From contig CAIIXF020000002.1 in assembly GCA_903813345.2 (NCBI GenBank), positions 4,194,001 through 4,258,000 of the forward strand: a stretch of 64,000 nt of DNA. Reading direction: 5' to 3'. Positions within the stretch are counted from its first letter, which is position 1; each line of letters starts with the position of its first letter. The translations under genes were made by a program, and so were the position numbers. The notes under the pieces were generated by a model. It ran no database searches, was not told where the DNA came from, and saw nothing but the letters and a program-made list of their open reading frames with translations. The DNA is from Owenia fusiformis. Lineage: Eukaryota > Annelida > Polychaeta > Sabellida > Oweniidae. Shown here in pieces: positions 1,671 through 50,300 of this stretch.

Positions 1671-1822
1671 GCCTCAACAAGTATTACAAGAGGATATGCG
1701 AACCTAACTGATGACCAAAAACAAATGTTGGAGAATGGTCCTAACCTTGGAGACTTCATAGAGAATGATGGCAAAGACTGGAAAGAATATAAAGGCAATC
1801 TTCTGAAGAAAAAAGGAGAAAA
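1671..1822 (+). CDS. LIAS: LIAS first visible exon
   Basis: Follows a TTGTAG acceptor, enters in phase 0 and leaves in phase 2 at AA|GTAAGT. It encodes the region after the transit peptide, ending [16 protein letters not shown], which matches the family's WDEYKGNLKRQKGE stretch. There is no early methionine, so an upstream exon must supply the start. Its last 51 nt plus donor are duplicated 87 bp downstream. Confidence 0.88.
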
Positions 1823-4800
1823 GTAAGTGCATTAAGATTTTAAAGGGGTTATTTAGTACAAAGATTGGAAAGAATACAAAGGCAATCTCCTGCAGAAAAA
1901 GGGAGAAAAGTATGTGTATATAGATTTTAAAGGGGTTATAGTATTACAGTATAAATAATATAAACATTTTAACATTTTATTTACTTCAATGATTGTATCA
2001 TTCGAAAAATTGAATTTTAGACTTAGATTGCCACCTTGGTTGAAGACCGAAATCCCAGTTGGTAAAAACTACACATCATTAAAGAAATCTCTACGTGGGT
2101 TGAACCTACATACAGTTTGTGAAGAGGCCAAATGCCCAAATATTGGAGAATGCTGGGGAGGGGGAGAGAACAATACTGCAACAGCAACAATCATGGTAAG
2201 TGTCCCTTTTTGAATTGGGCTCTGGCCAATGTTCAACTAAATCTGACAACTGGTTAGGAAAATTAATATTTTTTAAAAAAATGGTAGCTACTTTGAATTT
2301 AGCATTCATCTTGAAAATTCCTTCTAGAGCAGAGTCCTATATCCCTCAGGCATCAGCAGACTAGAAATTAACCTCAAAGCTAATATATTCATGCGGTCCT
2401 AACTTCAACCGTTAATTTGAATTTTTGACCTACCAGATGTTTGAAAATCAAGGATTACTAGTCTCATACTGCACCGTTTTTCTTCAAACTTGTTCCATTC
2501 AAAGAATAACACAAATCCCTTTCTGATAGTAAATTATTCTCTTCAACAGAGTCCCTACTTCCAGCGGCATTTTGGTCCCCATCTGTAAGAAGGCCTTCTA
2601 ACAGCTGGGGACCAAAATGCTGCTAGACTCTTTACAATAAAGTAATGCACCGACAGAAAGGCAATTTTGTTCTGCTTTTAATGGTATTATAAGAAAAACG
2701 GTGCAGTACGAGACTCGCAATCCTTAATTTTCAAGCACCTGGTAGGTCAAAAATTCAAATTATCAAACAACATTTTTACATTCTAGGTCCTTGGGGATAC
2801 CTGTACTCGAGGCTGTCGATTTTGCTCTGTGAAGACGTCAAGAGCACCCCCACCAGCTGACCCTCTAGAACCAATCAATACGGCACGTGCAGTGACAGAG
2901 TGGGGTCTCGATTATGTGGTCCTGACTTCAGTGGATAGAGATGGTATGTTTCACATTCTTAAAACATGATGGGTCATGTTATATAAGTTGTTTAATGTTT
3001 TAATCACACTTTTTCAAAGCGCTATATTTTTTGATGGGTGTGCGTTAATAGTGTGCGTCTGTGTGCGCATTGTGTGGGTGGTGTGGTGAAACTTCCAGGA
3101 AAACCTCTTACCTGTTCAACTTGAGATTATTAGGTAGCCCAGTGATATCCCCACCATTGAAGCAAGTGGCCACAGCAGCCACCCGAGATTTTAGAAACAG
3201 GTTGGCAGTCACCCGAAAATTTATTTGCAACCACTTTAAAATGAGAAAAATTGGCAGATTTTGATCAATTTTAGTCTGAAATGATGTGAAACTGAGAATT
3301 TTGCATCCACTTGAGAAATAATTTCTGTGGAGAACACCATAGTCATTTTAAATTTTTCCAATTTAAAATGCAATATTTATCACAGTGTGTCTTATTCTTC
3401 TATAGAGTATTACAGTAACACCTGTATAATGTGAACACAGCTAGTACCAGCTAAAAGTGATCACATTAACAGGTACTGTAAATGCAGTGATTTACAATGT
3501 GATTATATAAACTATGGACAGTTGAACATTTTAAATCAGTTTCAGTGATCTCCCTAGGATTCTTCTTAGGTGGGTACAAAATTTTCATTATCCCAACAAA
3601 CGAAGTTCTGTAGGGATATAGTATAGCCCTCCGTCCGTCCGTCTGTCCGGAAGATAACTCGAATACTAGTCGACAGATTTTCTTCATATTTGGTGGAAAG
3701 ATGTATATTGGTGAATAGTTTTACGCAAAAATTGCCAATTTTTCATGATTTTTCTCACTTTCAAGAAGGTGCATATGGATTTTCAGGTGGGTGCAAGCAT
3801 ATTTTCAAAATTTCAGGTGGGTGCTGCACCCACTTGTTTTAATGCTGGGGAGATCACTGAGTTTGTTGTAATAAATTGCTTTATATATCCAGAAGGATAT
3901 CCAGTGCATTAGATTTATTGTATTACATATATTTAATAAATTACTGCTGAATAAATAAACATACAAAAACTAGCAACCATATTAATGAATTGCTCACCCT
4001 TGACATGATTGCAATATCTCAAAGAACTATGTCTGTATATTAACTGTGCATCAATCTTCATTCAGAGAACTGGTGTCAAAATCTAGCTGCTTCCTCTATC
4101 ATGGCTCTATATCTGAACACCCCTCTAATCTGAGCACAATTTAATGTGAACACTTCCTTGGTCATTCAAATTTAAGAAACATGATACTTGAAATGTGAAC
4201 ACCTGCTAATCCAAATACATTTAGCCCATATCCCCTGGTATAATTCGAATTACACAGGAATATCTGAACACCTCTTTTATCATTCTGAACACAACTTAAC
4301 GTGAACACTTTCTTGGTCCCAATTTTGGTACCTCCTTTTGATTCACATATTAGAAACATGAAACTTGAAATGTGAACACCTTCTAATCCTGACACTTCTG
4401 CCCCATGCCAATATCATTTAAAGTGCATAGGTTTTACTGTAAAGAGTACATCATGAGTTTGTGTTTTAGATATGCCTGATGGAGGTGCTGCTCATTTTGC
4501 CCAAACAGTGAAAGAAATAAAAAGATTGTAAGTAGAAAATTCATGTAATTACAGTTTTAGTAATATGTTTAGTATGTCACCACCAGCGAGAAGTGGTGAC
4601 ATTGTTGAATAGTCTCCAACTTTTTTTATGGATGGTGTCCGGTGGCTGGCATTCTGTGTGATGTTTTGTAACAAATGGCAGGTGGTTACATTGTGCATGT
4701 TAATGCCTCATTCTAAAGAATTACTGCATTCAGATGCAACTAAATGTTTGCTCTAATCAGAAATTTAATCATTGTATGAGTTTATGTGACATCATAATGG

Positions 4801-7800: not shown

Positions 7801-10800
7801 AACCAAAAAATTCCCATCACTCAACATTATGATTTTTTTTTTATAGTTCTAGTAATGGGCCTAAGTAATAAATCTGTGAATAAAATCATTTTTTCACATG
7901 AAGTTATAAAAATGTTAATAGAGTTAAATAGATGTCAGTGGTAACTAATTCTTAAACATAAAAAAGCAGTATTAACATCATTGCAGTGATCTCCCCAGCA
8001 TTAAAGCAAGTGGGCGCAGCACCCACCTTAGATTTTAAAAATAGGCTTGCACCCACCTGTGAATCCATTTGCACCCACTGGAAAATGAGAAAAATCATGG
8101 AAAATATTTAGGCATATATTGACCAATTTTGGTATGAATTGTGAAATTGAGAATTTTGCACCCACTCAATAAAAAATCCTGTTGAGATCACTGCATTGTA
8201 TGTATAGAGTGCATTCATTTCTTTGAATAAACACAATACCTCAGTTACGGTCATGATAAACTTTACATTGGTGTAGAAAAATCAATAAAACAACTTTTAC
8301 AAATTTTTTAAGTGAGGTTTGTCAGGTGATATTTAATAACCAAGTGAACTTTTTATATTAGACTGTAGAAATGGCGTCAGCAATTGAAGATCGTTGTAAA
8401 GAAGCTCTCACTTGTGGACTGTGTCTGGATACTCTTACTGAACCAAGGACGTTACCATGTTTACACCAGTACTGTTTGAAGTGTCTACATGATCTTGTGG
8501 AGAAAATTGGGCTAAAAGAAGGTAGCATAAACTGCCCAGAATGTCGTCATGTATGTTATGTGCCACAACAGGGAGTGGCAGAATTCAAAGTGAGCCCTAC
8601 AATATCATTCCTGTTAGATGCCTATAAGGACATAAACCAGACTGAAGAGCCAGAATGTAGCAGGTGTCTTGAAACTGATGAGAAACACACCCTGGCTAAA
8701 GTTCAATGTCTAGACTGCAACAAGAAGTTTTGCGGGATGTGCAAGAAAATGCATGACTCATTTAAGGTCATGCAAGGTCACAAGTTAATCAACCTTACGG
8801 GAGACAGTGCACATGATCTACAAACTGCACTTCAGTCTATAAAAGAAAGAACTGTGTTTTGTCAAAAGCACCCTGCTAAACCAATAGAGATCTACTGTAA
8901 GGTAGACAATGCAGTACTCTGTCAACTTTGCTACACATTGGATCACCACAGCCATGCAGCTGAGGACATTAAAGAAACAGCTGCCAAGAATATGAAGCCA
9001 ATTGGGGCATTGATAACACAAGGTGAAGGACTTGCTGACATATATGAACAAGCCATTCAAGATATACAAGCCTATAAAAGTCAGTTGGGGCAAAATGCAG
9101 AAGATGCCACAGCAAACATTAACAATTATATGAACATACTGTTCCAAGCTATCCGTGAGAAGTTTAAGTCTCACACAGATCAAGTAGCCAAGGAGAAGGA
9201 AACCAACGTGAAGCAAGTGATGTCCCAACTTGGCCAACTAGAACTCCAGAAAGCCATCATTGAGGGTCAAGTCAAAAAGTTCTACACCATTGTTGAGCAT
9301 GGCCACCCTGTAGAAATAGCAGGACTAAAGGAACAGATTGCGACTAAAACAGAGGAATGGTCGCAACAGCCCAAGGTTGATTTCAATGGTAAAATCACCA
9401 TTGGGTTCACAGAAGGAGCAATCAAAGATGATAGGGTTGAGTTTGGAAAAGTTACAATCAAAGCTAAAGCAGAAGCTGGTGATTCAGTAGAGGTTACATT
9501 TACATGTTTGTCCAAGCCTATTGTGCGAAAACATAGACTTCAATCAGGTTTGATTGGTGATTTAACTGTAACACCTACAGGGGATTGTGTAGTAACAATT
9601 GGCAGGTTTTATCCATTCACCACTTCAAAAATATATGATGCAAGATACAAACTGAAAAAGGACTTAGGGAAAATATATAAAAATGTAACAATCTTGAAAG
9701 ATGGCAATATAGCATTCACTGATGACTCCAACACAATCACTGTCTTCAATCCATCTGGGGATCATGAGCGTGATATTGTGTGTACCAATGTAGAGGGGCT
9801 ATATGGGATAACTCAGAACAGTGCAGGTGACCTGGTGGTCTGTGATGGAGACACCAACACAGTACATCATATAGATCCAACCACTTGGGCATCCAAGTCT
9901 ACATCTAAGCCAGGCTTGTTCCAGTCGCCATACTATGTAGCATGTAATAGAAATGACACAGTTATTGTTAGTGACTGTTGGGGCCATTTTATAAAAGGAA
10001 TAGATAAGAATGGCAAGGAGCTATTCTCATATGGAGAGGAAGATGATGGTGATAGACAACTTCGTAATCCCCATGGCATATGTACTGATCAGGCTAACCA
10101 TATATTTGTGGCTGACAATAGAAACAACCGGGTCCACATGCTAAGTAAAGATGGAGAATTCATCCAGTATGTTCTAACACAGAAGGATGGTTTAGAGTAT
10201 CCACACGCTGTAGCAATAACCAATGAGGGACAACTGCTGGTTGGAGATTGTGAGGGCAACCTCTTCATTGTCAAATACAGGGAGTAAGGTAAATAATTTC
10301 ATGTCCTTAATATAAATGGTAAATACTGTTTTGTAAATGAATATTGTTTTGGGCTTGAAAGACCGAATACAAGAACTTAAATAAAAGATAGGAGTACAAC
10401 AAATAGTGCAAAAAAAACAAAAAAAACACTCGTTCAAGCGAATCATTTATTGTGAATATTATTTTTAACCTGAATTATGAAAAATTATGAAAAAAATACT
10501 ACAGATAGTGAAATCAAAACAATGTGCCTTTATCTCTCATTAAGTGAATCATTAGTTCATGATCTGATTAAATTTGGTGATTTATTTGTTTCAGCACAGG
10601 AGTGACATCTACATATGTGATGTTATGTTAGCAGTGTTTTAAGAAAGCCAAAACAGCACATTATAGAACGCCGTGGACTGCACAATATAATCAGGCTACA
10701 TATCCTAGGAGATGCTTACATATTGAGGTCTAAGGAATATAATTGTCAAGTATTATGCTATGAAACAACATAGGGAATCATGTAGCTCAGTCTTGAACTC

Positions 10801-13800
10801 AAAGAAATCAATGTGACTTAACAGAACAGGTTCTGGGCCGATAATAAGGAAAACATAAACACAGATCGATTACCATGCCATCTTTATTTTAAAATTATTT
10901 CTATCGCCCTTAGCCTATGAAACAGAACTTGCTCATGGACATTTAAGTGAAGGAAACTGATTTTTAAATCACTAAGCATATTACCATATTCTCAATAATT
11001 AGCACCCGGAAATTCAAAAATCCCCAGGAATTTCATGTATGGAAAATTTTCTTTCCAAGAATGGCTGTAGTTTTAAGAATAATAAGAGTTGTTTGTAAAA
11101 ACAAATCAGTCTTAGCTGCAGTTGGCAACAATCAGACGAAGCTGAATATTTGTTGACCTGATTTTATTCAAAACCCAGAGACACTTTGCAGTTTATACAG
11201 AGCGCATTTTTGCATTATAATACTATATAAAATTTTATTTTAATTCTCTTAGGTATTGTTTCAATGACTGCAAAATAATGTCACCTTAAGACATGATAAG
11301 GGGGTTTAATTCAGAAGTCTAATTTCTATAAGTAACAGTTATCGAATGATAATATTTGCAAAATATGTATAAAAGAATAAAAATGATGACATCATAAATT
11401 GAACTGTACATGTATTGTTTATTGACAAATTGTAACATATGGCATGATTTTAAAGTAAGTTTGCACAGGTGATAATGATTTGAAAGTTGTAATAACAGCA
11501 CACCATATATAATAAAGATTTATAGATAATTGCAGTCAGGCCCATAGCCAGGATTTGCCAAGGGGGTTCACTTTTTGAAAAATTCCATGGGAAGTTCACT
11601 TGTGACAATTTTGGTCCAAAAATGGCCAAAATCACTTAAAAAGTGCTAAGAATGGTGAAAAACTGCATGATTTTGAAAGATTTTTTGGCCAGGGTGGGTT
11701 CACTCGAACACATCGAACCACCCCCCCCCCCCTGGCTGTGGGCTTGGCAGTAAGTACCAGAGTTTAGTTGTTTAAAACATTTAAAGCTAGATACCTGATC
11801 CAGAGAGTAATAAAGTAGTAGTAGTAGTATTTTTATTTATTTGTGTCTCACAGACTAAAACACTATAAATACGCACTATTAAGAAATAATATCTGAATTG
11901 ATTTAGGTATCTTTTGTGTTTTATCTATGACCAGTTCGATTGAAGTTTCTGGGTTTAGGTTTAGAAAATTAACTTGCATCTCATTTTGAATTAATAAGCA
12001 ACCAGTTTAGACAAACAGCATCAATCAGTAGGCTTAACATGGTGATTGCTTAATATAGGCTCATTCTTAAAAATTAAGTCAAGTAGCAAAGTTAGCCAAA
12101 ATTGCAATAGTAAGTTAAATTACAAATATGTCATAGATAAGTATAACCCATGTAATACATTAGGATATTCAATACGATCGATAGAATTGATGAATTATAA
12201 AACCATTGTATCAGTACATGGGTTTTCAATAGAATGCCCATGATCAGTACGAATTTGGCTAAAATAAATTCAAAACAAGCAGTGAATGTTTGAAATGCTC
12301 TTTTTAACAGTAGCAACAATAACAAGGTGGTAACATGACAATATACGGTAGAAGGTTCTGTAACTATATGTTACAGAAATGGAAAACTGAAGCCAATACC
12401 CTGTCTCAAAATGTATGGTAGTGACATAACAATACATTGATGAATTAAAAAGAGTATTAATCGGGTCTTGATTAATCCAGGAGGTATTCCCAGGATTTTT
12501 CCAAAGGGGTGTGTCCATCATTGGTTCCCACACTCAATCACTACACAGGGAGATATGCAGAGTACTAAAATAGTACTTATGGCATTTTAACGCTAACTGA
12601 GTACTCATTTCAGTAAATATTACCCTTAGGAAAAAAATTTAGGGCACTTCCCTTGAGTTAAGGAAAGTTTGGGGTTATTTTAAGATTAATTTATCCACAA
12701 ACCTTAACATTAAGGTTAATGTTAACCTTAACCCATTTTTTACCTGATATTCCCCTTAATTTTTAAAATTAAAACCATGAATAACCCATGATGTTGATTT
12801 TAGGGAATATTTAGGTCCAGTTTGGGTTTAGTATCTAGGTTTAGTTCAGGCTTAGTTTACCCTTAATTTCTAAAATGTACACTTAAGATATATTGAGGCT
12901 ACTGATTTGGAAACACATCAGCCACCAATGAAATAAATTAAATTTAAGAAACATTAAAGATATTTTGGATTTATCTATCAAGTGAATGGGAATTTGTTTC
13001 ATCAAGGAGAGGAAGTATAGTGTCACAATGGATTCTACTTTCTTTAGATAACATAAAGTGTGAAACCATGATTTTCATTGAGTGTCAACTAGTATAAATG
13101 CCTATATTGGCCATGTTAAGACATTTTACAAATCAGAACTCAGGCTAGTTGTCATTTTTATTGTTAGCCAAAAAGCAAAATATAATTAATTTGTACCGTA
13201 AAACAACAAGCTTAAATAACAAAAAAATGATGCATGATTCTCAAAAATATCAAGAGAATCACACTATCTTAAGGTAAACGGCTAGATTGGCCATGTTTAG
13301 GCGTCTTGCAAAACATAACTATCGGGTATTGCCATTTTTATTTTGATAAATTTCTTGTGAGCCTTAAAGCTAGATACTGGTCCCTCAAAACTGCCAAGTG
13401 AGTACAAATAATAATGTAATGGTATTAAGGGAATCCTAACAAGGGGTTCATGTAAAAAACATTACATTGCCTTATTTAAATGTCTTAAAAACAGAACTAC
13501 CATGTAATTGTCATTTTAGTTGTAATTTCTGTTTTCATTTCCATTTCCATTTTCAATTTTCATTTCCATAAGTAATATTAAATGATAAGTGAAGTTATGG
13601 TTGGCTTGTGTGAATCAATGGGAATTTTAGGGAAACTTAGGGAAATTATACATGCACTCAAGGGATAATTAAGGTGCACTTAAGGGCAAATTAAGGTGGA
13701 CTTAGGGGACAATTAAGGTTCAATTAATGTTTACCAAGGTTCATGTCAAGGGTAGATCATGATAAATTATTATCAGGAATTAGGGTCACATTGATTTCAG

Positions 13801-16800
13801 CCATATATTGAATACATATTTGAGACAAAGTCATCCAGCTTAAAATTAACAAAATGCACAATTGCCAATGAAACAAAATACTAGTAATTACTTTTTAAAG
13901 GAAAATGACTCAAAAAGCCATGCTTAGGGTCCACCAAATCATACCTATTAGTAGTTTGCAAAATGCCTTTGAGTCAAATATTATTGAGCTGTAATAATAG
14001 ACCTCGAGTCTTACTAATAAACCATACACATGCCTTCCAAAACAGCTCCAGGGAGGATTATAGCATGTTATATAATGGAAAAGGCTAGATTGGACATGTT
14101 GATAATCTTACATTTCATAAATATCAGGTAGTTGTCACTTTCATTTTCATTTCATGTTAGTCTAAAAGCCAAATATTATTCACTTGTTATATTAGACATC
14201 CAGCTCAACTTATACAAGAGACATGTGACCCTCAAAACAGCCCAAGAAAGAATCATAGTTGTCATTTCTATTTTCAATTTTGCTAACCTGAAAGCTAAAT
14301 ATTATTCACCTGTGATATTAGGCATCTAGCTTAATTAACAAACAAGATATATGGGCTTCAAAACAGCCCCAGAGAGAATCACACTATGTTTTTAAACCAA
14401 ATGACTAGATTGGCCATTTTTAAGGCCTCTTATAAAACAGAACTATCCCATTGTCATAATTTCTCTGATTATTTCTTGTCAGCCATGAAGCCAAATATAA
14501 TTCACTTGTAATATTAGATATCTAGGTTAAATAACAGAAGAGATACATGGCTCTCAAAACAGCTCCAGAGAGAATCAAACTATTTTGACAATGTCAATGT
14601 CTAAATTGACCATATTAAAATGTCTTAAAAAACAGAACTATCCGGTAATTGTCATATTTATTCTCATTTTTCTATAGCCTAAAAGCCAAATATAATTCAC
14701 TTGTTATATCAGGGATCTAGCTTTAATAAAAAAAGAGATTCCTGGCTCTCGTAATAGCTCCAGAGAGAATCAGAATATTTTATCAAGGGGCTTCGATTGG
14801 CAATGTTTAGAGGTCAAACAATTCATAATTTTTAAAAAGTTGTAATTTATGTATTCATTTCCATCATGCATACTAGTCAAATATTAACAACCTTAAATAT
14901 GAGAACCCCAGCGCATATATGGAATGAGAAATAGGTCCCTCAAATCAGCACAAGGGAGTACAAATCTAGTGTAATGTTACTTTAATGACTCCCTCAAAGC
15001 GGTTCAAATAAAAAACTTTAAATTGCTTGAAGCAAATGAAGCATTCAGTGAATTCTACCATATAAATAATATGAAATATAAAATACAACCATTATTTTTA
15101 GAATTATTTACTGATAAATCAATAGCTACATTATGAGTTTGGTTCAAGGGGTCTTTAAAGTTTAGGGTAATTTGAGGGTTACTTCAGGGTAAATCATTTA
15201 CCTTTTACATAGATGAAACTTTATCTATAGGGGCCTGAGTCTGAATAAATTTCAGAATTCAGTTTCAAAAAAGTGAAATCATGGTTGGCTGTAGTGAATT
15301 TAAGAATAATTAGCTAAAATAAACAAAATATATGATTTACCATGAGATAAGTATGATTATTTAATTAAGGAAAATGACCGAAAAAGCCATGCTAAGAGAT
15401 CCACCAAATCATACCTATTGGGTAGTTGTCCTTTTTCCATTTCTTTCTAGCAAGTAAGCCAAATACAATTCAGTTATAATATAAGACATCTAGCTTAACT
15501 GCCCTCAAAACAGCTCCTGGGAGATTGACATTATAATATCAAGGTAAATGGCTTGATTGGCCATGCTAAGATGTCTTTCAAAACAGAACTCTTGGGACGT
15601 TGTAATTTTCATTTTCATTTCTTGCTAGCACTAAAGCCAAATATAATTCAATTGTTATATTAGACAGACAGCTTAAATAACAAAAGAGATACACTGCCTT
15701 CAAAACGGCTCCTGAGAGATTCACCTTATAATATCAAGGTAAATGGCTTGATTGACCATGTTAAGATGTCTTACAAAACAGAGCTATCGGGTTGTGTCAT
15801 TTTTATTATTTTCATTTTCTGCTCACCTTAAGCTAAATATAAATCACTAATAATATTAGAAATCTAGGTTAGATGATGAAAGGGATACATGGCCCTCAAA
15901 ACAGTCCCAGAGAGAATCACAATATCTTTTCAAAGCAAATGGCTATAGATTGGCCATGTTAAGGCCTCTCATAAAACAGAACTATCAGATAGTCCTCATT
16001 TCTCTGATTATTTCTTGCCAGCCATGAAGCCAAATATAATTCACTTGTAATATTAGATATCAAGGTTAAATAACAGAAGAGATTCATGACCCTCAAAAAC
16101 AGCTCCAGTGAGAATCACACTATTTGTCGATGTGAATGGCTAGATTGGCCATTTTCTATAAGTAATATTAAATGATAGGTGAAGTTATGGTTGGCTTCTG
16201 TGAATCAATTGGAATTTTAGGGAAACTTAGGGAAATTATACATGCACTCAAGGGATTATTAAGGTGCACTTAAGGGAAAAATTAAGGTGGACTTAAGGGA
16301 CAATTAAGGTTCAATTAATGTTTACCAAGGTTCATGTCAAGGGTAGATCATGATAAATTATTATCAGAATTTAGGGTCACATTTTTTTCAGCCATATATT
16401 GAATTCATTTTTTAGACGAAGTCATCCAGCTTAAAATTAACAAAATGCATAATTGCCAATGAAATAAAATACTAGTTATTACTTTTTTAAGGAAAATGAT
16501 TCAAAAAGCCATGCTTAGAGTCCACCAAATCATACCTATTAATAGTTGGCAATGTGCCTTCTAGTCAAATATTATTGAGCTGTCTGAGGATTATAGCATG
16601 TTATATAATGTAAAAGGCTAGATTGGCCATGTTGATACATCTTACATATCATAAGTATCAGGTAGTTGTCACTTTTATTTTCATTTCATGTTAGTCTAAA
16701 AGCCAAATATTATTTGTTATATTAGACTTCCAGCTCAACTCCTATAAGAGTTTTGTAAGTTACACAAGTGGTCTTATACAATATATACTTATCCTTTGAC

Positions 16801-19800: not shown

Positions 19801-22800
19801 TGTACACATATACCCTATGGGGGTAGAAGTTCTGCTCGAAAGCCGATTTTCAAAATGGCCGCTCATTTCAAAATGGCGGCCATTTTAGTGCTGAATTTAC
19901 AGTAATTTAGGTGCAATATGTAAAACTGTAATAGCAATATGTTTTAGATGTAAAAAAATTATATAGGACATTAATTAAGCTAGAATTGTAGATATTAAAG
20001 AAGCACATGGCAGCCATCTTGAAAAATGGCGGCCTTTACTCGTTATTTTACGATTTTAAACATTGCACACTGTCTAAAGACACTTCTGGTAGAAGGTGGC
20101 CATTTTAAAAAATGGCCACCATTTTGAAAAATGGCCGCCATTTTAACCTATTTTACTATAACTCGAAAAGTAGTGAAGCGATTTTGTTCATATTTGGTAT
20201 GTGAATACTATAAGGATGGCACACTGTCTAATGACACTTTTGGTAGAAGGCGGCCATTTTGAAAAATGGCCGCCATTTTAACGTATTTTACTATAACTCG
20301 AAAAGTAGTGGAGCGATTTTGTTCATATTTGGTATGTGAATACTATAAACATTGCACACTGTCTAAAGACACTTCTGGTAGAAGGTGGCCATTTTAAAAA
20401 ATGGCCACCATTTTGAAAAATGGCCGCCATTTTAACCTATTTTACTATAACTCGAAAAGTAGTGAAGCGATTTTGTTCATATTTGGTATGTGAATACTAT
20501 AAGGATGGCACACTGTCTAATGACACTTTTGGTAGAAGGCCGCCATTTTGAAAAATGGCCGCCATTTTAACGTATTTTACTATAACTCGAAAAGTAGTGG
20601 AGCGATTTTGTTCATATTTGGTATGTGAATACTAAAAGCATGACACACTATCCTATGACACTTTTAGTAGAAGGTGGCCATTTCAAAAAAATTTTGAAAA
20701 ATGGCCGCCATTTTAATGTATTTTATAATAATTCGAAAAGTAGTGAAGCGATTTTGTTCATATTTGGTATGTGAATACTGTAAGCATGGCACACTGTCTA
20801 ATGACACTTTTGGTAGAAGGCGGCCATTTAACGTATTTTACTATAACACGAAAAGTAGTGGAGCGATTTTGTTCATATTTGGTATGTGAATACTATAAGT
20901 ATGGCAAATGGATGACATTTTTGGTAGAAGGTGGCCATTTTGAAAAATGCCTGCCATTTTTGCTATATACTTTGTTTGTAAAAATGCCATCCATGGCTGT
21001 TCGATGGGATTTGCTACGCTTTGGCGTTGCCGTTGTTCTGGTTTGTCTTAAGGAATTAAACTGACTCAGGGATATTACAATAATTGAACCAGGCTGTTTA
21101 TTAAATTCATGTTGACAATACTTCCTCCATAGTTAAGCAATAAAATTAGATTTTTCATGTACTTTTACATTTAGATCTGAGGGAAATTGATGTAGACTGT
21201 CTAACATTGGGGCAATATATGCAGCCAACAAAGCGCCATCTACAGGTCAGTATAAGTTAACAAAAATGCAAAATGCAATCCTGTATTGAATGCTCCTATT
21301 TTCTTAAACTTTTCTGGACTAACCATTTAAGGTAACGCTAAAGTTAATCAAATGTACATAGTTATGAAAAATGCGTTTAAATGTGAAGTTTTCTTTGACA
21401 TATCTCTTTAGTCAGGAAATGCATTCATATATAAGGAAAACCGATACAAAATTTTGTGACTACCAAAAAAATATGGCTGCCATTTTTTGTACTTTTGATT
21501 AACTTTACCGTTACCTTAAAGTGTCTGGGAGGAATACTTGATGTATGAAAATATACTTACCAGTAAGTTTTAATTCTATGCCAAAAATATAATTAAGTGT
21601 TTGTGTACTTGTAGGTAAAGGAATATGTTACTCCTGAGAAGTTTGCCTACTGGGAGAGCATGGGAAAGAAACTCGGCTTTGCATATACTGCTAGTGGCCC
21701 TCTAGTCAGATCCTCTTATAAAGCAGGTATGAACCAATAATATCAAATTGACTGATCATATACTGATCATTCACTGCTAGTGGCCCCCTAGTCAGATCCT
21801 CTTATAAAGCAGGTATGGACCAATCATATCAAATTGACTGATCATATACTGATCATTCACTGCTAGTGGCCCTCTAGTCAGATCCTCTTATAAAGCAGGT
21901 ATGGACCAATAATATCAAATTGACTGATCATGTACTGATCATTCACTGCTAGTGGCCCTCTAGTCAGATCCCTTTATAAAGCAGGTATGGACCAATTATA
22001 TCAAATTGACTGATCATATACTGATCACTCACTGCTAGTGGCCCTCTAGTCAGATCCTCTTATAAAGCAGGTATGGACCAATTATATCAAATTGATGATC
22101 ATATACTGATCATTCACTGCTAGTGGCCCTCTAGTCAGATCCTCTTATAAAGCAGGTATGAACCAATAATATCAAATTGACTGATCATATACTGATCATT
22201 CACTGCTAGTGGCCCTCTAGTCAGATCCTCTTATAAAGCAGGTATGAACCAATAATATCAAATTGACTGATCATATACTGATACGAGTTGCTGTTTGATA
22301 AAGTTGATTATCGATTTAGAAACAAGTACAGATTGACCTGTGTATATTGAACATTTTTGCTGGGAAAAAATGAATGTGTTTAGGTGTTCACTAGAGAGGG
22401 TGATTTATACAGAGGTCAACACGTATGTGCATAGGAAGGGTGTCCATTAGAGACAGGTGTTCACTAGAGAGAGGTGTTCACTAAGACAGGTTTTGTGGTA
22501 CATATGCCATTACCTAGTTTTCGAACAATCTGTATTCATAAGCAAGTATTACCCACATTAAGAAATCACAATTTAAAGTAATTGCAATTTGATTTAACTC
22601 CAAGACAGTCTTTTTATTATTACTGTACACCCCCAATCCGCCCTGTAAAATCACACTACTGTACGGTTCATTTAGAGTATGGTACCGTACGCTACCGTTG
22701 GATAATGGTGTCATACTGTGTTCACGGTACTGGACGGTACCATTTTGGTCTATGGTACCATATTTCACGGTACCGTACAGTACCATTGCAAAAACTATTC

Positions 22801-23399: not shown

Positions 23400-23660
23400 A
23401 TGATGAAAGAGGAGAAGTTTAAATGATGAAAAAGTGAGGAGTTTAAATGATGAAAAGGGAAGAGTTTAAATGATGAAAGAGGAGGAGTTTAAATGATGAA
23501 AAAGGAGGAGTTTAATTGATGAAAGAGGAGGAGTTTAAATAATGAAAGAGGAGGAGTTTAAATGATGAAAGAGGAGGAGTTTAAATGATGAAAGAGGAGG
23601 AGTTTAAATGATGAAAGAGGGGGAGTTTAAATGGTGAAAGAGGAGACGATTAAATGATGG
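23336..23660 (+). repeat. 23-24 bp minisatellite in the LIAS last exon
   Basis: About 13 copies of GATGAAAGAGGAGGAGTTTA plus AAT, beginning inside the coding region and giving it its stop codon. Confidence 0.92.
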
Positions 23661-24545: not shown

Positions 24546-24606
24546 TGCTTAAGATAAAACTGGATCTGTGACAACCCTCACCAAAATGTGTGTGATTACT
24601 TAAGGA

Positions 24607-27896: not shown

Positions 27897-27973
27897 TACA
27901 GGGTGTACATAGAGTCTACACATTACATGTACTTTGTATTGTAATTTTAAAGCGACTTTGAGGACACTCTGTA
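27897..27973. mobile_element. Short TACAGGGTGT-type MITE
   Basis: TACAGGGTGTACATAGAGTC to GGACACTCTGTA, 77 bp. A sister copy is at 54575-54654 and a decayed one near 29400-29462. Confidence 0.6.
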
Positions 27974-28594: not shown

Positions 28595-28854
28595 TACAGT
28601 AAAACCTGTCTAATCCAAACGCCATTGGGATCAGATAAAAGTGTTTGGATTTGCAGGTTTTCAAATTTAAGCTTTTTTGAAGAGAGAAGCTCATGACAGA
28701 TTTTAAAGGCATCGAGAGAAGCTTTCACAGAGACATGTTTGAATTAGTGAGTTTTCAATATTTTACTTTAAAATTTTGCTCATAAATTCAGATTTGAAAG
28801 ACTTAAGAGAATTTATAACATGTAAATGATCGGATGACTTACACTTTTACTGTA
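28595..28854. mobile_element. TACAGTAAAACCTG-type TIR element
   Basis: TACAGTAAAACCTGTCTAAT at the left and TTTTACTGTA at the right, about 260 bp. Same family as 3411-4441 and 42117-42585. Confidence 0.6.
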
Positions 28855-29169
28855 TGAAATAACAAAGATTCAAAGCAATAGAATTGCATAATAATTACAA
28901 TTAATACAATGTATTGTAGATTGCAACAATACGAATTGTGGTAGGAAGCTCATAACTGATAAGCAGTTGAATCAAAAAACGATGTACAAATAAATCACAA
29001 ACACAGGAATAGGTTTTCAGAAACTGAAGTATTTGGTATACTTTAAACATGTCAGTTGTTATTTTGGCCAAAATTTGCTATAATTGCTCCAATATGAGAA
29101 TTTTACACGTCGCAAATCAATAACTTATCAAAGAACAGCCTTATTAAAACTGCGAGCAATCTTACAGAT

Positions 29170-29338
29170 CTAGCAGCTCTCTACAAAACTGCCGGGGAAT
29201 AATCCAACTTTTCCATTCTTTTGTAATGTTCCTTTAAACCAGCCGTCTTCCCGCTTTTTATGCACATATATAATATCGCCAACTTTCAGTTCTAGCTCTA
29301 CATCTCCTTGTGGGGGATAAGGTACTATACATCTGTAC
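29170..29338 (-). CDS. SH3RF1 (POSH): POSH terminal exon, SH3-4 and stop
   Basis: Acceptor TTTTTCAG, phase 2 in. Encodes [39 protein letters not shown] and [10 protein letters not shown], stop TAG at 29170-29172. Matches the human C-terminus [20 protein letters not shown] to FPGSFVENI. The intron before it (29339-36083) carries the foldback element. Confidence 0.95.
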
Positions 29339-32300: not shown

Positions 32301-35300
32301 ATACATGTACCATAGAATGAGACATTGCAGTTATAAAGTCATTTGTAATTCGGATATATGACAAAACATGCAAACGAGAGAATGTCAATCGGGATTAGAA
32401 GTGACTTATCGCCCTTGTAATTTAGCAGTGGGACAGTTTGGTGTATGTTTGGGCATAAATGCGCCTTTAAGGCCTAATTTTTCAGGATATTTTCAAAATT
32501 TCGGGTCAGATTTGGGGTTAAGGGGCCAATTTTGGTAAAAGAGGCTAGGCTACTCACACTACTGATAGGCTACCAGTATACAAAAGATGTTGCATCCAAG
32601 GCATGCAAAAGACTTATCGTCCATTGTTCCTGTAATATAAGGAGTGTTTGGGGAGAAGATGCAAATATTTGAAAGTAGATCTTATTGTCTCTGGGCTATA
32701 TGTAGCTGAAGCCTGCAGGGGAGACAGTCCAATCCATAAATTCTGAACTTCTGATTTTATGAATCTCAATAAATATGACAAAACAAGACTATATTTATAC
32801 CATTTTGGGCACACATTTGAGATGCATATGTTGCATACTGTGAGAGTTATATCAAGGTGAGATATAGTTGGCCCTGAGATGTCAGAATTGGAAGCTAAAA
32901 TGAAAATTTCAATTCAAAAAAGGTGTAATAATTTTTTCTACATCTCATGAATAATATTATGACAAAGCAAGACCATATGCCCCATTTTTGGTATATTTGA
33001 GTTGTATATGTTACATAATTTTAGAAGTTATTGAGGGACCTCAGAAGCTAAAATTAAAATTTTTTAAATGTATAATCATATTCCTACATCTTATTAGTAT
33101 AATATTATGAAAAAGCAAGAGTACATACACCATTTTGAGTACATTTGAGATACATATGCTCCATATTTTGGAAGTTATTAAGGTGAGATATGGTCACCCC
33201 TGGGACGTCAGAAGCCAAAATGAGAATTAATATTTTTTTAAAAGTACAATCATTTTCTTACTTCTTATTACTAATATTATGACAAAGCAAGAGTACATAC
33301 ACCATTTTGACCACATTTGAGATACATATGCTCCATATTTTGGAAGTTATAAAGGTGAGATATGGTCACCCCTGGGACGTCAGAAGCCAAAATGAGAATT
33401 AATAATTTCTAAAATGTACAATCATTTTTCTACTTCTTATTAGTAATATTATGACAAAGCAAGAGTACATACAACATTTTGAGCACATTTGAGATACATA
33501 TGCTCCATATTTTGGAAGTTATAAAGGTGAGATATGGTCACCCCTGGGACGTCAGAAGCCAAAATGAGAATTAATAATTTCTAAAATGTACAATCATTTT
33601 TCTACTTCTTATTACTAATATTATGACAAAGCAAGAGTACATACACCATTTTGAGCACATTTGAGATACATATGCTCAATATTTTGGAAGTTGTTAAGGT
33701 GACATATGGTCACCCCTGGGACGTCAGAAGCCAAAATGAGAATTAATATTTTTTTAAAAGTACAATCATTTTCTTACTTCTTATTACTAATATTATGACA
33801 AAGCAAGAGTACATACACCATTTTGACCACATTTGAGATACATATGCTCCATATTTTGGAAGTTATAAAGGTGAGATATGGTCACCCCTGGGACGTCAGA
33901 AGCCAAAATGAGAATTAATAATTTCTAAAATGTACAATCATTTTTCTACTTCTTATTAGTAATATTATGACAAAGCAAGAGTACATACAACATTTTGAGC
34001 ACATTTGAGATACATATGCTCCATATTTTGGAAGTTAATAATGTGAGATATGGTCACCCCTATCCTGCATGATACCACAATTTTAAATTTCAATAATTTT
34101 TTTCTCCGCCGGTACATAAGCTATTGATCTAATTTTAAGTATGTGGTATGAACATATATAGGTCCTTCAGAATGAATTTTTTCAGTACATTTCGTACCTT
34201 AACGAATCTAAAATAAGTTATTACACGTGGTAGAAGTACCAAAATAGGTGGCGCCCCTGTAGTGAATTTCAAGATATGCCCTTATTTTCACCCTAATCCA
34301 CACAAGAAAATTCATACTGATTGTAAATAATGTTTTTGATAAGATTTTATTAGTATTGCAATGTCATTTTCCTATTAAAATGTGTTAAAAAATTATTTTG
34401 TACCCCTACCCCCTGTTTGAAAATGAATAGATGGCGCCTCTTTAACTGCCCATAGCAAATTCGTTTACCACACATTTTTACTCCACCCAAGATGAATTTA
34501 TTCTAGAGAGTGTCTGGAACAAAATGATACCCACAAACCTTTTTTCCGAGCCGAGTAACGAAATCAGACCTAGGGACAGCACTACTAAGTAGTCTCAGCC
34601 AAGGAATTTTTTGAAAAAGTAAACTAATATATTTTTTCAACATGCCATATTTAAAACAATTATTATTTTAAGAAATAGTGAAAATTACTGTATGATCAAA
34701 AATGATTCACTCTTTAAAGGGATATTCCTTGCCAGACCATCTCTCTCCTAGTATAAAAGTTATAACCATATATATATACTTTCTATGTTTAGCAAAACAT
34801 GGACAAATGTTTTAATATTATATAGTCAACATTGATTTCTTAAAAATGTCGTGCTAAAATCTCATAGGCTGCCATCTTTTAAGATTTCACCGAGAAAGTG
34901 ATGTCTAATCCACTCAATATTGACCATATAAAAACATTTTCATGTTTTTTGCTAAATATGTAAAGAATATACATATGATGATAGCTACCATATCAGGAGA
35001 GAAATGGTCTGGCCAGGAATATCCCTTTAATATGATGCTTTAATGTCAATTAATACATGGATACATGTTAGTTATGATTTTCTCTTTTGATTTATTTGAA
35101 TAAGTGTTTTCAAAATTAAGGAGTGGCCAAGCCAAGTTAACTGTTTTAATGAAATCTGCCATTTGCCAATGAGCAACCAGAAACATTCCATTTTTCCTAT
35201 AATGCCTTCGGGCGATTGGAATTATGTAGTTGCTTTAAGTTTGAATAAATAAATTCTTATAAAAAAGCAACCAGAAACAAGACTGTTTACTCTGGCATGA

Positions 35301-38300
35301 AAAACCAGTGGGGCTAATGTGAAATGTAATTTAGGAAATTGCACCATTAACACATACTGGCTTTCCCGACCAAAATAGTCATCCCCTTCTAAATACTCCA
35401 GGTTTAAAATCCACTGCTGATTCAACTCAAATTGTATATCTAATTTTTACCATCTTAAAACATGAATGACTATCGTACAAATATATCAAAATAACACTAC
35501 GTATAAGCATGACGTCTTTCTCGAGTTCAAGTAATAATAAAATAACAGTTTTGCATCATTATCACCGTCACTTTTACAATAATTAACAAATTCAGTTATG
35601 AATGGAATATTTCATAACCACAATTACAGCAATTCTGAGCTGCTATTTTCAGGTGGATAATTGCAGCTTTTACCGTTTAAGTGTTATGATGTCATCAAGC
35701 AATCGTAATTTACTCCATTCATAAAAATGATCGCCAGAAAAACATAACGATTAAGATTGAGAATAAGAATTTGAGGTCACATTGATGAACCATAATTACT
35801 CAAACTGACAGGTAAACCGTAGACCCTTAACCAGTGATCTCCCCAGCATTAAAGCAAGTGGGCGCAGCACCCACCTGAGATTTTGAAAATAGGCTTGCAC
35901 CCACATAAAAATCCATTTGCACCCATTTAAAAATGAGAAAAATCATGAAAAATTGGCATGTTTTGTCCAATTTTGGTCTGAACTGTGAAAATGAGAATTT
36001 TGCACCCACCTGAAAAAATCCCGGGGAGATCACTGTCAACCTAATTTTGACTCAGACTTTGTAAAATAACCTAAAAGATATACCTCTCTCTGATCATTGG
36101 TTTTGGTTTGGAAGGTCTAGCTGGAGGAACTATGGACGCATCAACCGATGACGCTTTTTTATGACTTGGTAAAGGTGGAGCCACTGCCCCTTCTGCAGCC
36201 CCATCTATTGGTGTTGAAGCTGATCTGAAAACAAACAGTGTCATTTATTTCAAATATTTGTCAGTTATATCGCATCCAATGACAATTGTTCAAAATCTCT
36301 ATTAGGCCAGTTTAAGATATGAGCAGATGCATCTGAGCATGGCAAACAATTATGAGCTCAAAGATCTCGTTAAAAAATTCAAAATCAACAGTGCAACTAT
36401 GATTATTTCATAAATGTTTGACAGTTGATGGAAATCCACATGTACATATTTAGGAAAAAGAGTTTATCTAGGATTCTTAAGAATTTGACAATATAGTAAA
36501 ACCTGTCAAATCTCTATAATGCTACTGGGACTGGACCATAGTGTTCAGATTATCACCTGTGTGAATCAACAGGACAAAATCAACTACAGAGTTGTTCGGC
36601 TAAACAGATTTCACTGTATGTGCAAACACATACAACTGACTCAAATCGGCAAAATCACTCACCTGACATGAATTGCACTCACTTGATATCAAATGCACTC
36701 ACTTGACATAAAAATCACACTCACTTGACATGAATCACACTCACCTGACATGAATTGCACTCACTTGATATCAAATGCACTCACTTGACATAAAAATCAC
36801 ACTCACTTGACATGAATCACACTCACCTGACATGAATTGCACTCACCTGACATGAATTGCACTCAGGTCCTGTTCACTTGGAGGACTTTCAGGTTTTGAC
36901 ATTTTCCCTTTAAGCTTCTTCATAAGGCTTATTTTTTCACGCTTCTCTCTCTGTTAAAACATAAATTACAATAAATTATCACAAAATGTAACATTCCAAT
37001 GGCTAATTTCATGTCTCTCTTAAAAATTACATCACATTATCACAAAATTTAACTTGCAATTCCCAACTAATATCCATACAAGTCTATACAGTTGTTTAAA
37101 AGTTAATAAAAAAACATGTCTAATTCTTACCAGCCTCATTTAAAATGTTAACACATAGATTATCTACATGTATTTTAAACATATTATTTCAATCAATCGA
37201 GAGTTTAGAAAATCATGGAAAATTTGAACATGTTTACCATTCATACAAGTTATTCATAATATAATGAAAAATAATGGAAAATTATGGATCGATAAAATGT
37301 GTTTAATAGTATTACCTTTTCTTTGGTTGAGACGGGTGTATTGAGTGGTAACGGGACACTTGATGCTCCCGTAGTTGTATGATGTGGTACGACGGTATTT
37401 CCTGTCACACGTGGTGACACCTTTGGGGCAGTAGTGGAACTAATCGGTGATGATCGACCTTTCATTGAGACATTTATATCTTTGGATTGCGAGATTTTAC
37501 TGTTTTTAGAACTGTTGCTACGGTGAACATCAGAACGTGGCGATGGAGAACTATCAGAACGAGGTAGGGGTACTGCTGGTTTTCCCGTCCCCTCATTTTG
37601 TGGGGCAGGGGGCAAAGGCTTGGAGATTTTATCCGACTGAGTCTTTGTCGGTTTCGATCCCGCAGAGGCAGAACTTTTTGGTATTGATTTTGTACCACTA
37701 TGTTTAGTGGGTGCAGATTTAGCACCAGAGGGCGGGCCATCACTTGGCGTCGTGCTGACAGTCGACTGTGATGTGGCCGTAGAAGCCATAGCTGCGGAGT
37801 GTAATCCAGTAGAGTTTGAGAGTAATCCAGTAGAACTTACAGGAGATTTTGACACTGAGACTGCAATACTGTGCGGCTTTACTAATCCTGGAACAGTTTT
37901 GATATGACTTGCCCCTGTGGGAGTACGAGGAGATACGGTGACCTGGGTTTGACCTTGTGAACCTTGACCTTTGCTGACCTTGTAGTCTGAACTAGCACTG
38001 GGGTCAACCAATCCTGTACCAAGGGTGGGACGATTCAAACTGATTGGCAGGTGACTCAGGGCTGTGATTGGTTGAGCTGGTGGTGTGGATGACCCTGATT
38101 GGCTACTCCGGGATGAAGTACTGGAGACAGGAGTTGGTAGTAAAGCATTTCTAAGCACAGAAGGTGCCCTGAAATCAGATTTATTTATTTTATGTAGTTA
38201 TTGCCATAATATATATTACATTATACGAGGGGTGTTCCAAAATAAACTGACTCAACCTCATATGTTTCAATTTCTTATATTTCAATTGATTCAAGAATAT

Positions 38301-44300: not shown

Positions 44301-47300
44301 AAAAAAATACAATATTTGCAATCTACTCTTAATTGCCTTTCATTTGAGTATAATAAAGCTATACTTCAGAAAGATCTAAAAATTAGCGAAAATTTCTGTT
44401 TTCCTGTCCCCCCATACATGGCCCCTGGGGGTCAGGATGAAAAACACAGAATATATGTGAAATAGATAAATGTTGTGAATACACTTCCAAAATTTCAAAC
44501 AATAATATTAATTACTTTGGTTTAGAATGAAACATTTATGATTTTTGCGAAAAAGTCCCGTCATTTTTAAAGCGGCGGCCATCTTGAAAAATTTTTTTTT
44601 TGCGTAAAACTATTCACCAATATACATCTTTCCACTAAATATGAAAAAAATCTGTCAACTAATATTTGAGTTATCTTCCGGACAGACGGACGGACTGACT
44701 GACTGACTGACTGACTGACGGACTGACAGACTGACGGACAGACGGACGGAGGGCTTCACTATATCCCTAACGAACTTCCTTCGTTGGGATAACAAGGGAT
44801 GAAGTGTTTTACCTGAGTTTGGTTGGAATAGGGTTTTTGTTGATCAGAGACTTAGCAGCATCATTCATCTGAAAATGAAACAAACACATTTTACACCCCC
44901 AAAATGCAATCTGAATTTCAACACTGTTTCGGTGCCATTTCGGCACCAAATGGACTGACTAGTCCGGTGGCAAATTTTGGTGTCGAAAGGTTTCGGTGCC
45001 GGAACGGTGTCGAAACGGTGCTCGAACAGAGCCGAATTTTTTCGATGCCGAAACGGCGGCAAATTATATTGGCTGTGTAGGCCTATAAATCTTGAATTGA
45101 ACTGACAGTCGTCCATATCTTCAAATATCTTACAAGAAAATAGAAATCAATTTTATGGGCATGCCGTGTCTTGAATCATTCATTGCTGGTAACAAGGCCC
45201 AGGAACATGTATAAAAATTGAGTTGAATACACCAAGTAAAGAGCTTTTTACTTGGTGTATTCGACTCAATTTTTATACATGTTCCTGGGACTATGGCTGG
45301 TAATTATGATTGGTTGGGACTCATAGGACACCATTTCTCAATACAAAAAATTAAGATTCTTGAAAATTCAACAACATATCAAATACATTTCAACTGGACT
45401 TCAAAATATTTTTATCAATAACTTACCTCAACAAACGACATTGGGAATATTCCAATTCTATCAGACATTTTGCCCTCTGCCCAATTGGAATCGACTCTCT
45501 TGATGACCGTAACCATCTCATCCTGAAGTAAGAAATGTTATGTTTTACTTTATGATTTAACCACATGATAATGCATGAGTTACCTTGTATACACTTAATC
45601 AAAGACATCTGGCCAAGATCTGGCACCCAGCCGATTGAGTGTTTTGATCAATATTGTATTCATTTTTAACAAAATACTCAATCGCTCGGGCGCCGAAGAG
45701 AAAATCGGAGCAAATGTGACTCAGGCATTAGACATGTATTTTAGAGAAAAAGAATCCAAGAGGCACAAAATAGTAAAAAATAATAATAAAAAAAACAGTT
45801 TGGCGCCATGCATCAATCTAAAAGCATTTAAAATAGGGTTTATTTCCACTGTCAAATTGGAATGTCTACCAAAAGATTAACGACATGTTATGAACTGGTG
45901 AGGTTATAATGGATTCAAAGTGCAAAAATGGATGAAAAATTCTCCTAAATAATCAATGTGTTTTAAGTATCTATAAATTTCCTGATTTTTTTTTTAAATC
46001 GACTATTGCTTACCTTTTTAAAAGTCAGACAGTCTTTTTCATTTTCTCCATCATTCAGCTGGAAATCATATAAAGCTTTGGCTTGTGGCATCTCCTGCGC
46101 CAACGGAGTAATGATCTGCAATAGAGAATATGAAAATATCAGCTGGAAATCATATAAAGCTTTGGCTTGTGGCATCTCTTAGGCCAATTGAGTAATGATC
46201 TGCAACAGAAAATATCAGTTTCAAAACAATGATCAGTGTTTCTTTTCATGTGGTTTGGGATAGCTGTTTTTTGCTGTGTTGTATTGTATTGTATTGTATT
46301 TTATCTTGGTGACCGTCATATTTGGCGAGCAATACCTCATTGGTATATTCCGTATTTACGCATTTTTTTACATTCGAAGACAGAGCTAGAAACCTCTCCT
46401 TGGAGAAGCCCTGTGTTCTTTTGTGTGCATGGGTACATAGACATACAAGTACACACCAAAGCCTTTTATATGAGTCAGGAACCACTCAGTCAAACACCCA
46501 GAATTACATAACACACAAACAAACTTGTCTGAACCAGGAATGGAACCCGGGGCCAAGCGATAGTGGTAACCTTGACTCTGCCACTGAGCCATAGCGGGTG
46601 TTCTGGAACAATTTTTGATCCTTTTCTTTTGTCACAGGTGCATATTATTAGTCAGGCATCAAGCTCCTGTAGGTATTCCTCATCCTCTCAACCACAACTT
46701 CCAGTTTTCTAAGTGGAAAAATCATGGGCATCCCCAGGGGATAGGATGGGGGTATGCATTGGGTGTGACTGGAATTTTCAAGTGCAAGCTATGATGATAT
46801 AGATGTAGACGCACCCCTTGGGAAAACCTGGGGGCAAATCCAAATCTTTTTAACATGTGGATAGAATGGTTGAAGTTACATTTTCTTTGTCCTTCAAAAC
46901 AATTATCGAGGCCCAATATTATGTTGATATTAATCGCATCTTTCTGTTGATACCTATAGTTCCTGCTGAGGTAATTACTTTTTAATTGAACAATCAGACA
47001 AGAACGCGGAGGGTCTGTGCGTCCGAGCTGATCACTGGAGATAATGAAACATAACGTAAGATCATGTTAGTTCCGTTTAAAAACCATACAGTAATCAATT
47101 GCTTATAGGTACGCGGACTAGTTTTTAAGGTAATCAAAATCTCAAACCAACATTTTCAAATCTCAGTTTGGCAAAAAAATAGTCACACAGGAAGAATAAA
47201 AGCTCAATTAAAAATGTAAAAAAGTCACACAGGAAGAATAAAAGCTCAATTAAAAATGTAAAAAATAGTCACACAGGAACAACAAAAGCTCAATTAAAAT

Positions 47301-50300
47301 CATTAACAACAGAGTTAGTAGTTATCAAGCACACATAGCCAAATATAAGTGGCACAATATTATCAGTCAATTATGCACAAGGAGCAAAGGGGGGGGGGGG
47401 GGCTATATACATTTGGTGTAAAAAGGTCCCCTTAAGTACATCCTCAGTTCTCCATGTAAAATTGTTTTTGTCTTTACTATATACCAAGTATAATTATTAA
47501 CCTTAATATGGTTAGAACAGAGGCATAATTCAAATTTTTGCCCAAAATTTCATAAATTTTACTCAAAATTGATTATACAATCTGTTTATATATGATTGTT
47601 CTGCCAAAAGGACCCCTGGAGCAAAAATCGTTTATTACCATTAACAGTAAGTCATTGATTTAAAGTAGACCCTAGGAGAGGATAGAGCCCCATCATCTAG
47701 CCACAGGTCACCCTCTGGGTGTTAAAGATGATAACATTTTTACATTGGGAATGGAGTGCCTAGTCTTGCTCAAAGACTGTATCCACCCCCCCCCCCCGTC
47801 ATCTTCACTCTCTTTACCTGGCAATATATATAATATATCTCTCTAGAGAGAAGGATAAAAGGGGGGGGGGAGTACAGGGTCTTTTAAGCAAGACTATGGA
47901 GTGCCGATAGGGCAATGCATTGACCACCAATCGATTTGATATGATAGATTAACATATCTCTAGAGCCTATATATACATAAGCTGTAAAACTTCAAAACAC
48001 GCAGACAGCAATGAACCACTGAGCATATGTTCAATTCAAATCCAAAGAAGGAATCTGTTACAGACAACAAACGTTGACCACCAACACGGATCGCCATCCA
48101 CAAAATGTTGGAGACCATAACAATATGTCTAACATACTAAAGCCAGGAATAGACTTATTATGAATGTGTGAAAACAGGTTTCTATCATTATATAAGTCGG
48201 GTGACCCAATGCGATAATCTACCTGTACATAAGTATTAAGTTGGGGTGAACAATTGTGTATTGTTTACCTGTACATAAGTATTAAGTTGGGGTGAACAAT
48301 TGCGTATTGTTAACCTGTACATGAGTATTAAGTTGGGGTGAACAATTGTGTATTGTTCACCTGTACATAAGAATTAAGTTGGGGTGAACAATTGTGTATT
48401 GTTCACCTGTACATAAGTATTATGTTGGGGTGAACAACTGCGTATTGTTTACCTGTACATAAGTATTAAGTTGGGGTGAACATTGTGTATTGTTTACCTG
48501 TACATAAGTATTAAGTTGGGATGAACAATTGTGTATTGTTTACCTGTACATAAGTATTAAGTTGTGGTGAACAATTCTGATTGTTTACCTGTACATAAGT
48601 AGCAGGGAAGAAGCCATGTAGTCCGCCGTGCTCTCCATGGAACCAATTTTCATCAACCTGTTTTCTCAAAATAACAATGTCCCCCTTCTTAAATGTCAGG
48701 TCCCTGAAAAATATGAAGCAGAATATTAAGGGTATTGTGAATATATGAAAGAAATATGAAGGGTATTATGGAATACTAAGTTTTTGTTTAAAAATGGAAA
48801 GCTTGGAAAAAGGAATGAGAAGATGCATTTATTTAAATGTTTTTGAAAAAATTGACTTTTTGGGAAAAAAGATTTTGTAAAAATCAAAAATATGGAAATA
48901 AAATATGGAGATGAACAGGGAAAATGATTTTTTCAGCAGGAATTTTTTCAATATAAATTATATTTCCTGGTGTTATTCCCCGAATAAGTAAAAGTATAAA
49001 TGTACTATACACATACCCTGGTTCTTTGGCATCATAGTTATACAGTGCTTTAGCACATGGCTGATTGATAGCTGGTACAACCTGAAACACAACAACATAT
49101 GGGATATCAATAAAATGATGCATGTTATAAATGATTATGCTTTATCATATGGGTTGTATATATTAGTCTTGCTTCAAGGCTCTCATGGGCGTAGCGCTAT
49201 ATTTCTAAGTAGTACGCCACCGCGGGAACAATAGTTGAGCGAAGCAAAAAACTAGCATTTAGGGAAGTCTGGGGGTTCTCCCCCAGGAAAATTTTGAAAT
49301 TTGATTGTATTTAGAGCGAATTTGCAACCATCTGGTACGCCTGTGCGTACCCAGCGTACTGGGCGCTACGCCTATGGCTCTGGAAACACTCCTTTTCTTT
49401 ACCTATTTGTGTATGAGGAATGGAGTCAAGTAGTGAAACATATTCCGCAAACATAAGTTTGAATTATACAGATATGTTATTTAAATCATTTTCGATATAC
49501 CTTTTTCAACTTTTCTAAAAAAGTGTGGGCCAAATTTCCATTGATGCCATGTTAAAATTCTTTAAAACCTTGGTTTATTCATGCGACAACCAAAAGTTTC
49601 CTGATTAATCACAATGTGTACATAACAGTCAACCCGCCATTTCAGTTAAAAATAGATTCAACGAATGCTTTTTGATAAATTGTTAAATAAAGTCAAGTGG
49701 CTATCGTAAGTTTTTAACATGGAAGCTTATGGCAGTTTGGCCCACACAAAAGGAATAAAAACAAGTAGTGACATCTATTGGTACTTTCTGGAAAAGTTGC
49801 TTGGAAAGTCTGATTTGAAATTTTTTTATATTATACTGAAATTAATAGTGAAACATCATTCCAATATAAAATTGCTGATTTTTTTAACAGTAGTTACCGA
49901 AGTTTCAATATGGAGTACAGCATTATAGCAAATTTCACACGTACGTTTTTGATACAAATTACTTATTACTTCAAAATTCAAGGGAACGTCACTATGTCAC
50001 AATCTCAGTGTTATATGCGTCATTCGAGGTTTCACACCTCATTACGACAATTGCTTCTGCTATAAAACTGACATTCAAATAGAATCTACCAATAGAGGAA
50101 AAAGAACATACAAGAAGCAACATCAACAAATCAAAGAATATTCGCGAATCATTTCAACAAGATTTGAAACATTTTTCTCTTGTTTCAAGTTAACTTCAAC
50201 CTGGCCAGTCTCAAATAGAATTGTTGAACTGAAATAATAAACGTAAAATGGAAGCCATGATGCCGTGCAAAACAGAGACAATAAATATAAAAGAAGCTTG

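Follow-up and report, generated by a model that had tools for sequence, protein, structure and literature searches.

The 64,000-nucleotide stretch of Owenia fusiformis DNA analyzed here (the window; positions 4,194,001 to 4,258,000 of contig CAIIXF020000002.1) carries the LIAS gene on the forward strand and the POSH (SH3RF) gene on the reverse strand, and tandem arrays lie across exon-intron junctions of both genes. To map the exons, we used tblastn with human LIAS and SH3RF1 queries, the splice sites were taken by reading the sequence, and arrays were called with Tandem Repeats Finder (TRF). This gave 20 coding exons (9 of LIAS and 11 of POSH) and 37 junctions (18 donors and 19 acceptors), where a preliminary description of this DNA had counted 22 exons. 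Five of the 37 junctions, all of them in POSH, were placed approximately, and none of these lies inside an array. TRF recovered five arrays, each across one coding splice junction, and together with the exon mapping this confirmed what had been described earlier, i.e., four arrays at donors and one at an acceptor, with units of 87, 86, 46, 20 and 84 bp.

Two of these arrays straddle LIAS donors (+ strand). The coding exon at 1671..1822, defined by tblastn with human LIAS and its splice sites, has its donor junction at 1822 and its last 51 bases inside an array of 1.9 copies of 87 bp at 1772-1939 (TRF, sequence and tblastn); the second donor, if used, would read an in-frame TAA (AAG TAA). The coding exon at 21615..21726 (tblastn and splice sites; donor junction at 21726) ends within an array of 6.9 copies of 86 bp at 21687-22282 (TRF, sequence and splice-site scores), which offers seven CAG/GTATG donors of equal score and has a unit that shifts the frame. 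The remaining three arrays belong to POSH (- strand). An exon at 48589..48703, which aligns to residues 152-190 of human SH3RF1, within an SH3 domain, has its donor junction at 48589 within an array of 8.3 copies of 46 bp at 48220-48601 (TRF, sequence and scores); GT was kept in all 8 copies scored, and the unit shifts the frame. The unit of the donor array at 36656-36865 (~20 bp in 10.3 copies; TRF, sequence and scores) does so as well, and its copies read CAG/GTGAGT or CAA/GTGAGT; it belongs to the exon at 36847..36950, for which the donor junction is at 36847 and the acceptor was read by eye. Finally, the acceptor of the exon at 46014..46115 (tblastn and splice sites; exon start at 46115) is repeated in an array of 1.9 copies of 84 bp at 46055-46215 (TRF and sequence), with an in-frame TAA in the upstream copy. 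If a distal copy were used, the frame would be shifted in the 86-, 46- and 20-bp arrays and a stop would be met in the 87- and 84-bp arrays, whose units are in frame. Normal LIAS and POSH protein would therefore need the exon-proximal copy.

The five units showed no cross-match by BLAST and no sharing of the mobile type when compared with each other and with the window, which bears out the earlier claim that the arrays are unrelated and do not represent one mobile repeat. In a genome search that skips very common words, the 86-bp LIAS unit had no match beyond its own array; the other units were compared within the window only. Because no unit was shared in the window and the 86-bp unit was confined to its own locus genome-wide, a common mobile unit or dispersed repeat was not supported as the source.

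Arrays of this kind were reportedly named mirages by Canestro and colleagues in 2002, in the amphioxus Adh3 gene. The preliminary description, which knew of no named system, was mistaken on this point, since two papers describe boundary-spanning tandem repeats in amphioxus genes as mirages (PMC3087553, PMC3902484). They occur at the acceptor of BflGb6 and the donor of BflGb9, where regular splicing is seemingly undisturbed, and they have been proposed as a source of introns (PMC3087553). The second paper reports imperfect mirages in PGBD5 and also mentions TnC (PMC3902484). In both, the amphioxus cases are given as regularly spliced despite the copies (PMC3087553, PMC3902484). The repeat unit contains the exon/intron boundary, which defines a mirage, in 5/5 window arrays and in 11 of the 13 straddling arrays from the genome sample described below; unit sequence and length are specific to the locus in the window arrays, as in mirages, and both 5' and 3' boundaries are affected. 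The host differs, amphioxus being a cephalochordate and the present arrays being spiralian, although this concerns the place where the arrays are found and not their nature. With a spiralian host, the arrays seem to extend a known type of repeat to another lineage. In addition, the amphioxus mirages are known from a few genes, whereas many genes were sampled here with a denominator. No arrays called mirages outside amphioxus were found among the matches listed, a weak negative since the literature searched lacks most subscription journals. The locus itself is not common to amphioxus and this genome: in the two stretches covered, which flank its long intron, an Adh3-like gene showed no TRF array near its 8 matched exons, so a shared mirage at Adh3 was rejected.

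Other systems resemble these arrays in part. A study of human internal tandem repeats in segmental duplications describes variable minisatellites, with units of ~30 bp on average, that can be located at exon-intron boundaries (PMC2812944). There, as here, minisatellite units are able to lie at boundaries, and the human ones can alter gene structure; however, half of the human repeats are coding and transcripts are altered by many of them, whereas here the extra copies are on the intron side (PMC2812944). Intron gain of the Rogers type by AG/GT tandem duplication, as in potato RdRp, likewise duplicates splice signals, but it makes a new intron, whereas the copies here sit inside an existing one (PMC4974935). 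For earthworm intronic minisatellites, arrays across junctions are not described in the portion of the report at hand (PMC12783039).

We compared the number of junctions within arrays with chance expectation in the window, using merged TRF arrays with a period of at least 10. The resulting 31 arrays cover 10,489 of the 64,000 bases (16.4%). Circular shifts of the array mask placed a mean of 6.06 junctions inside arrays, compared with the 5/37 observed (P(≥5)=0.71), and when single arrays were placed at random in the window, 3.5 touched a junction versus 5 observed (P=0.26). Junction arrays in the window are not in excess of chance.

Next to the window stands a wider sample from the 498 Mb assembly, drawn from exon matches to the myosin head, kinesin, aldehyde dehydrogenase and SNF transporter families. 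Match-dense stretches, a subset of all matched places, were fetched at 66 loci, some of them in the same gene. One kinesin locus (L063) had been chosen for an array visible in the match table and was taken out of the rates, which rest on the other 65 stretches; a Hox locus (L003) and two Adh stretches (L071 and L072) also stand outside them. A cluster of myosin exons in tandem (G000:C9:37986009-37994334) was for the most part deliberately excluded, as liable to confuse the count, and L005 holds one of its exons. This cluster, beside a myosin gene, matches the same part of the myosin head profile (about 18-84) twelve times in tandem, and the matches are probably alternative exons. The 223 matched exons yielded 186 donors and 200 acceptors (61 of each in pairs consistent in frame, the others assigned singly), so that 37 exons without a donor and 23 without an acceptor were dropped. 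A junction was counted as within an array if the array reached 5 bases on each side of it. The authentic donor at L009 was shifted by hand from the second copy to the first.

Results from this sample showed that 13/383 junctions (3.4%) lie in an array, i.e., 6/185 donors and 7/198 acceptors (Fisher P 1.0). On inspection, 11 of the 13 straddling arrays were clear copies of a splice site and two (L006 and L031) were doubtful. Arrays cover 8.5% of non-exon sequence (18,412/215,819 bases) and 1.8% of matched exons (748/42,246 bases, some matches running through small introns). Coverage was 3.5% within 5 bases of junctions versus 6.4% in intron 60-400 bases away, a ratio of 0.55 (bootstrap 0.30-0.80, 65 loci), or 0.59 (0.35-0.86) with L063 restored. 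For donors alone the depletion was clear, with a ratio of 0.47 (0.13-0.83). Binned coverage over the 65 stretches showed no peak at the exon edge and instead a rise from exon into intron. On the exon side it was 0.2-3.5% in the bins within 80 bases of the junction, increasing toward it; the first 10 bases of intron gave 3.8% at donors and 3.5% at acceptors, and bases 30-59 gave 6.3% and 4.9%, respectively; at 100-800 bases it was 4.6-11.2%. As a more sensitive test, we searched for the best 30-base self-match at most 450 bases away on the intron side, requiring at least 24 matches and trying three thresholds. There was no significant excess at donors (6/183 versus 14/324 intron controls, P 0.64) or at acceptors (8/196 versus 9/338, P 0.44), and exon middles gave 0/183 in the donor set and 3/196 in the acceptor set. 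Boundary enrichment was therefore not supported by the window shifts, the ratio to adjacent intron, the absence of an edge peak and the self-match test, nor was donor bias, given the nearly equal counts at the two kinds of site. Because arrays are rarer at exon edges than in nearby intron, they look tolerated rather than targeted.

The copies themselves were analyzed in 18 arrays, namely the 5 from the window, 11 from the sample and those of the Hox locus L003 and the kinesin locus L063. L006 and L031, although counted among the 13, were dropped from the copy-by-copy tests because the splice site is not clearly repeated in their arrays, which favors retention in those tests. The period was divisible by three in 6/18 arrays, just one third, so these arrays showed no bias toward multiples of three. 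GT or AG was kept in 95/98 copies, and in many copies the site scores no lower than the authentic site; diverged arrays can lose sites, e.g., at L062. At L063 (G000:C2:23266100-23270000), in an acceptor array of 18 copies of 159 bp (97% matches by TRF), 16 of the 17 upstream copies score at least as high an acceptor as the last copy does; all 17 read into TAA where the last copy continues into the exon. L003, one of four Hox loci read (Hox cluster, C1 18.29 Mb), carries at 485-1503 a 76-bp acceptor array of ~13 copies before a Hox homeodomain exon. At another of the Hox loci (L001) the homeodomain is followed by KLTGP, the spiralian Lox5 signature, and an amphioxus origin of the genome was accordingly rejected. 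A search for mitochondrial cox1 gave no match in the assembly.

Arrays in the window also affect an edge other than a splice site. At 23334-23659 (+ strand), an array of 14 copies of 23 bp, absent from the preliminary description, runs over the final LIAS codons and the stop codon (TRF and translation), which are thus part of the repeat. The LIAS C-terminus is therefore repeat-derived, and the array is the same event as the mirages at a non-splice edge. Elsewhere in the window, a LIAS intron contains a long single-exon gene with RING, B-box and NHL matches in Pfam (TRIM-like; 8374-10284, + strand). Two similar blocks at 13639-16318, in which 22-bp units are repeated at 13653 and 16243 and 195-bp units at 14259 and 15501, are perhaps a repeat element with an internal minisatellite. 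In a POSH intron, two 172-bp arrays (30218-30883 and 33052-34061) have consensus units that look, by eye, mutually reverse-complementary.

Our preferred explanation, to which we assign a probability of about 0.8, is that the mirages here are ordinary minisatellites born by chance across exon/intron edges, a consequence of a heavy, largely neutral load of arrays and a selective sieve. Much of the non-coding DNA of this genome holds tandem duplications. If one of them crosses a junction, the copy joined to the rest of the exon could still give a normal mRNA, provided that the spliceosome uses the exon-proximal site, i.e., the first donor or the last acceptor. The remaining copies would become intron, and there slippage or unequal exchange could lengthen the array. 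Selection would remove duplications harmful to the exon and keep arrays in which the exon-proximal copy still splices. While the structure of the arrays, their frequency in the sample, the similar rates at donors and acceptors, the lack of edge enrichment and of a multiple-of-three bias, and the unrelated window units are observed, this mode of birth, the sieve and the use of the exon-proximal site are inferred.

Several observations weigh against this explanation, and some of them favor its rivals. One rival is that duplication is targeted to exon/intron edges, e.g., by slippage or by R-loop-linked breaks at junctions during transcription. Consistent with targeting, the window rate of 5/37 exceeds the sample rate of 13/383 (Fisher P 0.015), although the window was picked post hoc for this feature, and two of the sampled stretches (L032 and L062) carry two such cases each. 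The acceptor-only coverage ratio was 0.66 (0.28-1.16), so depletion at acceptors alone is not established, and acceptor self-matches were slightly above the intron controls at all three thresholds, none significantly (7/196 versus 6/338 at threshold 26, P 0.25). However, coverage has no junction peak and falls to about half that of adjacent intron, the window itself has no excess, and one of its arrays sits at a stop codon. We therefore consider targeting improbable, and the earlier suggestion that slippage is favored at boundaries was not supported.

Another rival builds on the idea of selection or tolerance in the preliminary description: extra donors would be retained because U1 small nuclear ribonucleoprotein (snRNP) binding shields long introns from early polyadenylation, or extra sites would otherwise aid splicing. 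The near-complete retention of GT or AG and the many sites matching the authentic one in strength agree with such a benefit. Relative to the exon-proximal copy, the loss of splice dinucleotides in 3/98 copies was below that of random columns (pooled P 0.019, per-array P 0.041). We judged this first test biased because the exon-proximal reference copy cannot lose its own GT or AG. When the majority among the copies served as reference instead, 3/89 were lost versus 8.1% expected (P 0.12, in a weak test), so that retention was not significant under this fairer control and selection keeping extra sites was not supported; the losses in diverged copies at L062 point the same way. Moreover, U1 protection predicts an excess of donors, and the similar frequency of arrays at acceptors and donors counts against it. 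Tolerance is supported, and a benefit through U1 or splicing appears as improbable as targeting. The preliminary description also saw in the arrays possible raw material for changes in exon length; for mirages, a gain of introns from the repeats has been proposed in print (PMC3087553). Least probable of all, in our view, is an artefact of assembly. Mis-assembly is known to occur at tandem arrays, an amphioxus mirage was aberrantly assembled in a draft (PMC3087553), and four copies at L009 are identical. Nevertheless, copies in the five window arrays match each other at only 82-96% (TRF), a divergence that a stuttering assembly is not expected to invent, and arrays are present at many independent loci.

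The arrays may also bear on how splice sites are chosen. Tentatively, the spliceosome of this lineage might reliably pick the exon-proximal donor or acceptor against up to 16 neighbors of equal or higher score, in which case ~3% of junctions could carry decoys cheaply and exon definition would rule, rather than site strength or the order of synthesis or scanning. Altogether, mirages, so far a curiosity of a few amphioxus genes, now have a controlled rate in a distant phylum, 13/383 junctions, and nothing in it points to targeting. In each array, splice sites near-identical in sequence and score compete naturally, and these arrays could let RNA data test the choice of the exon-proximal site and how often arrays seed new introns or exons.

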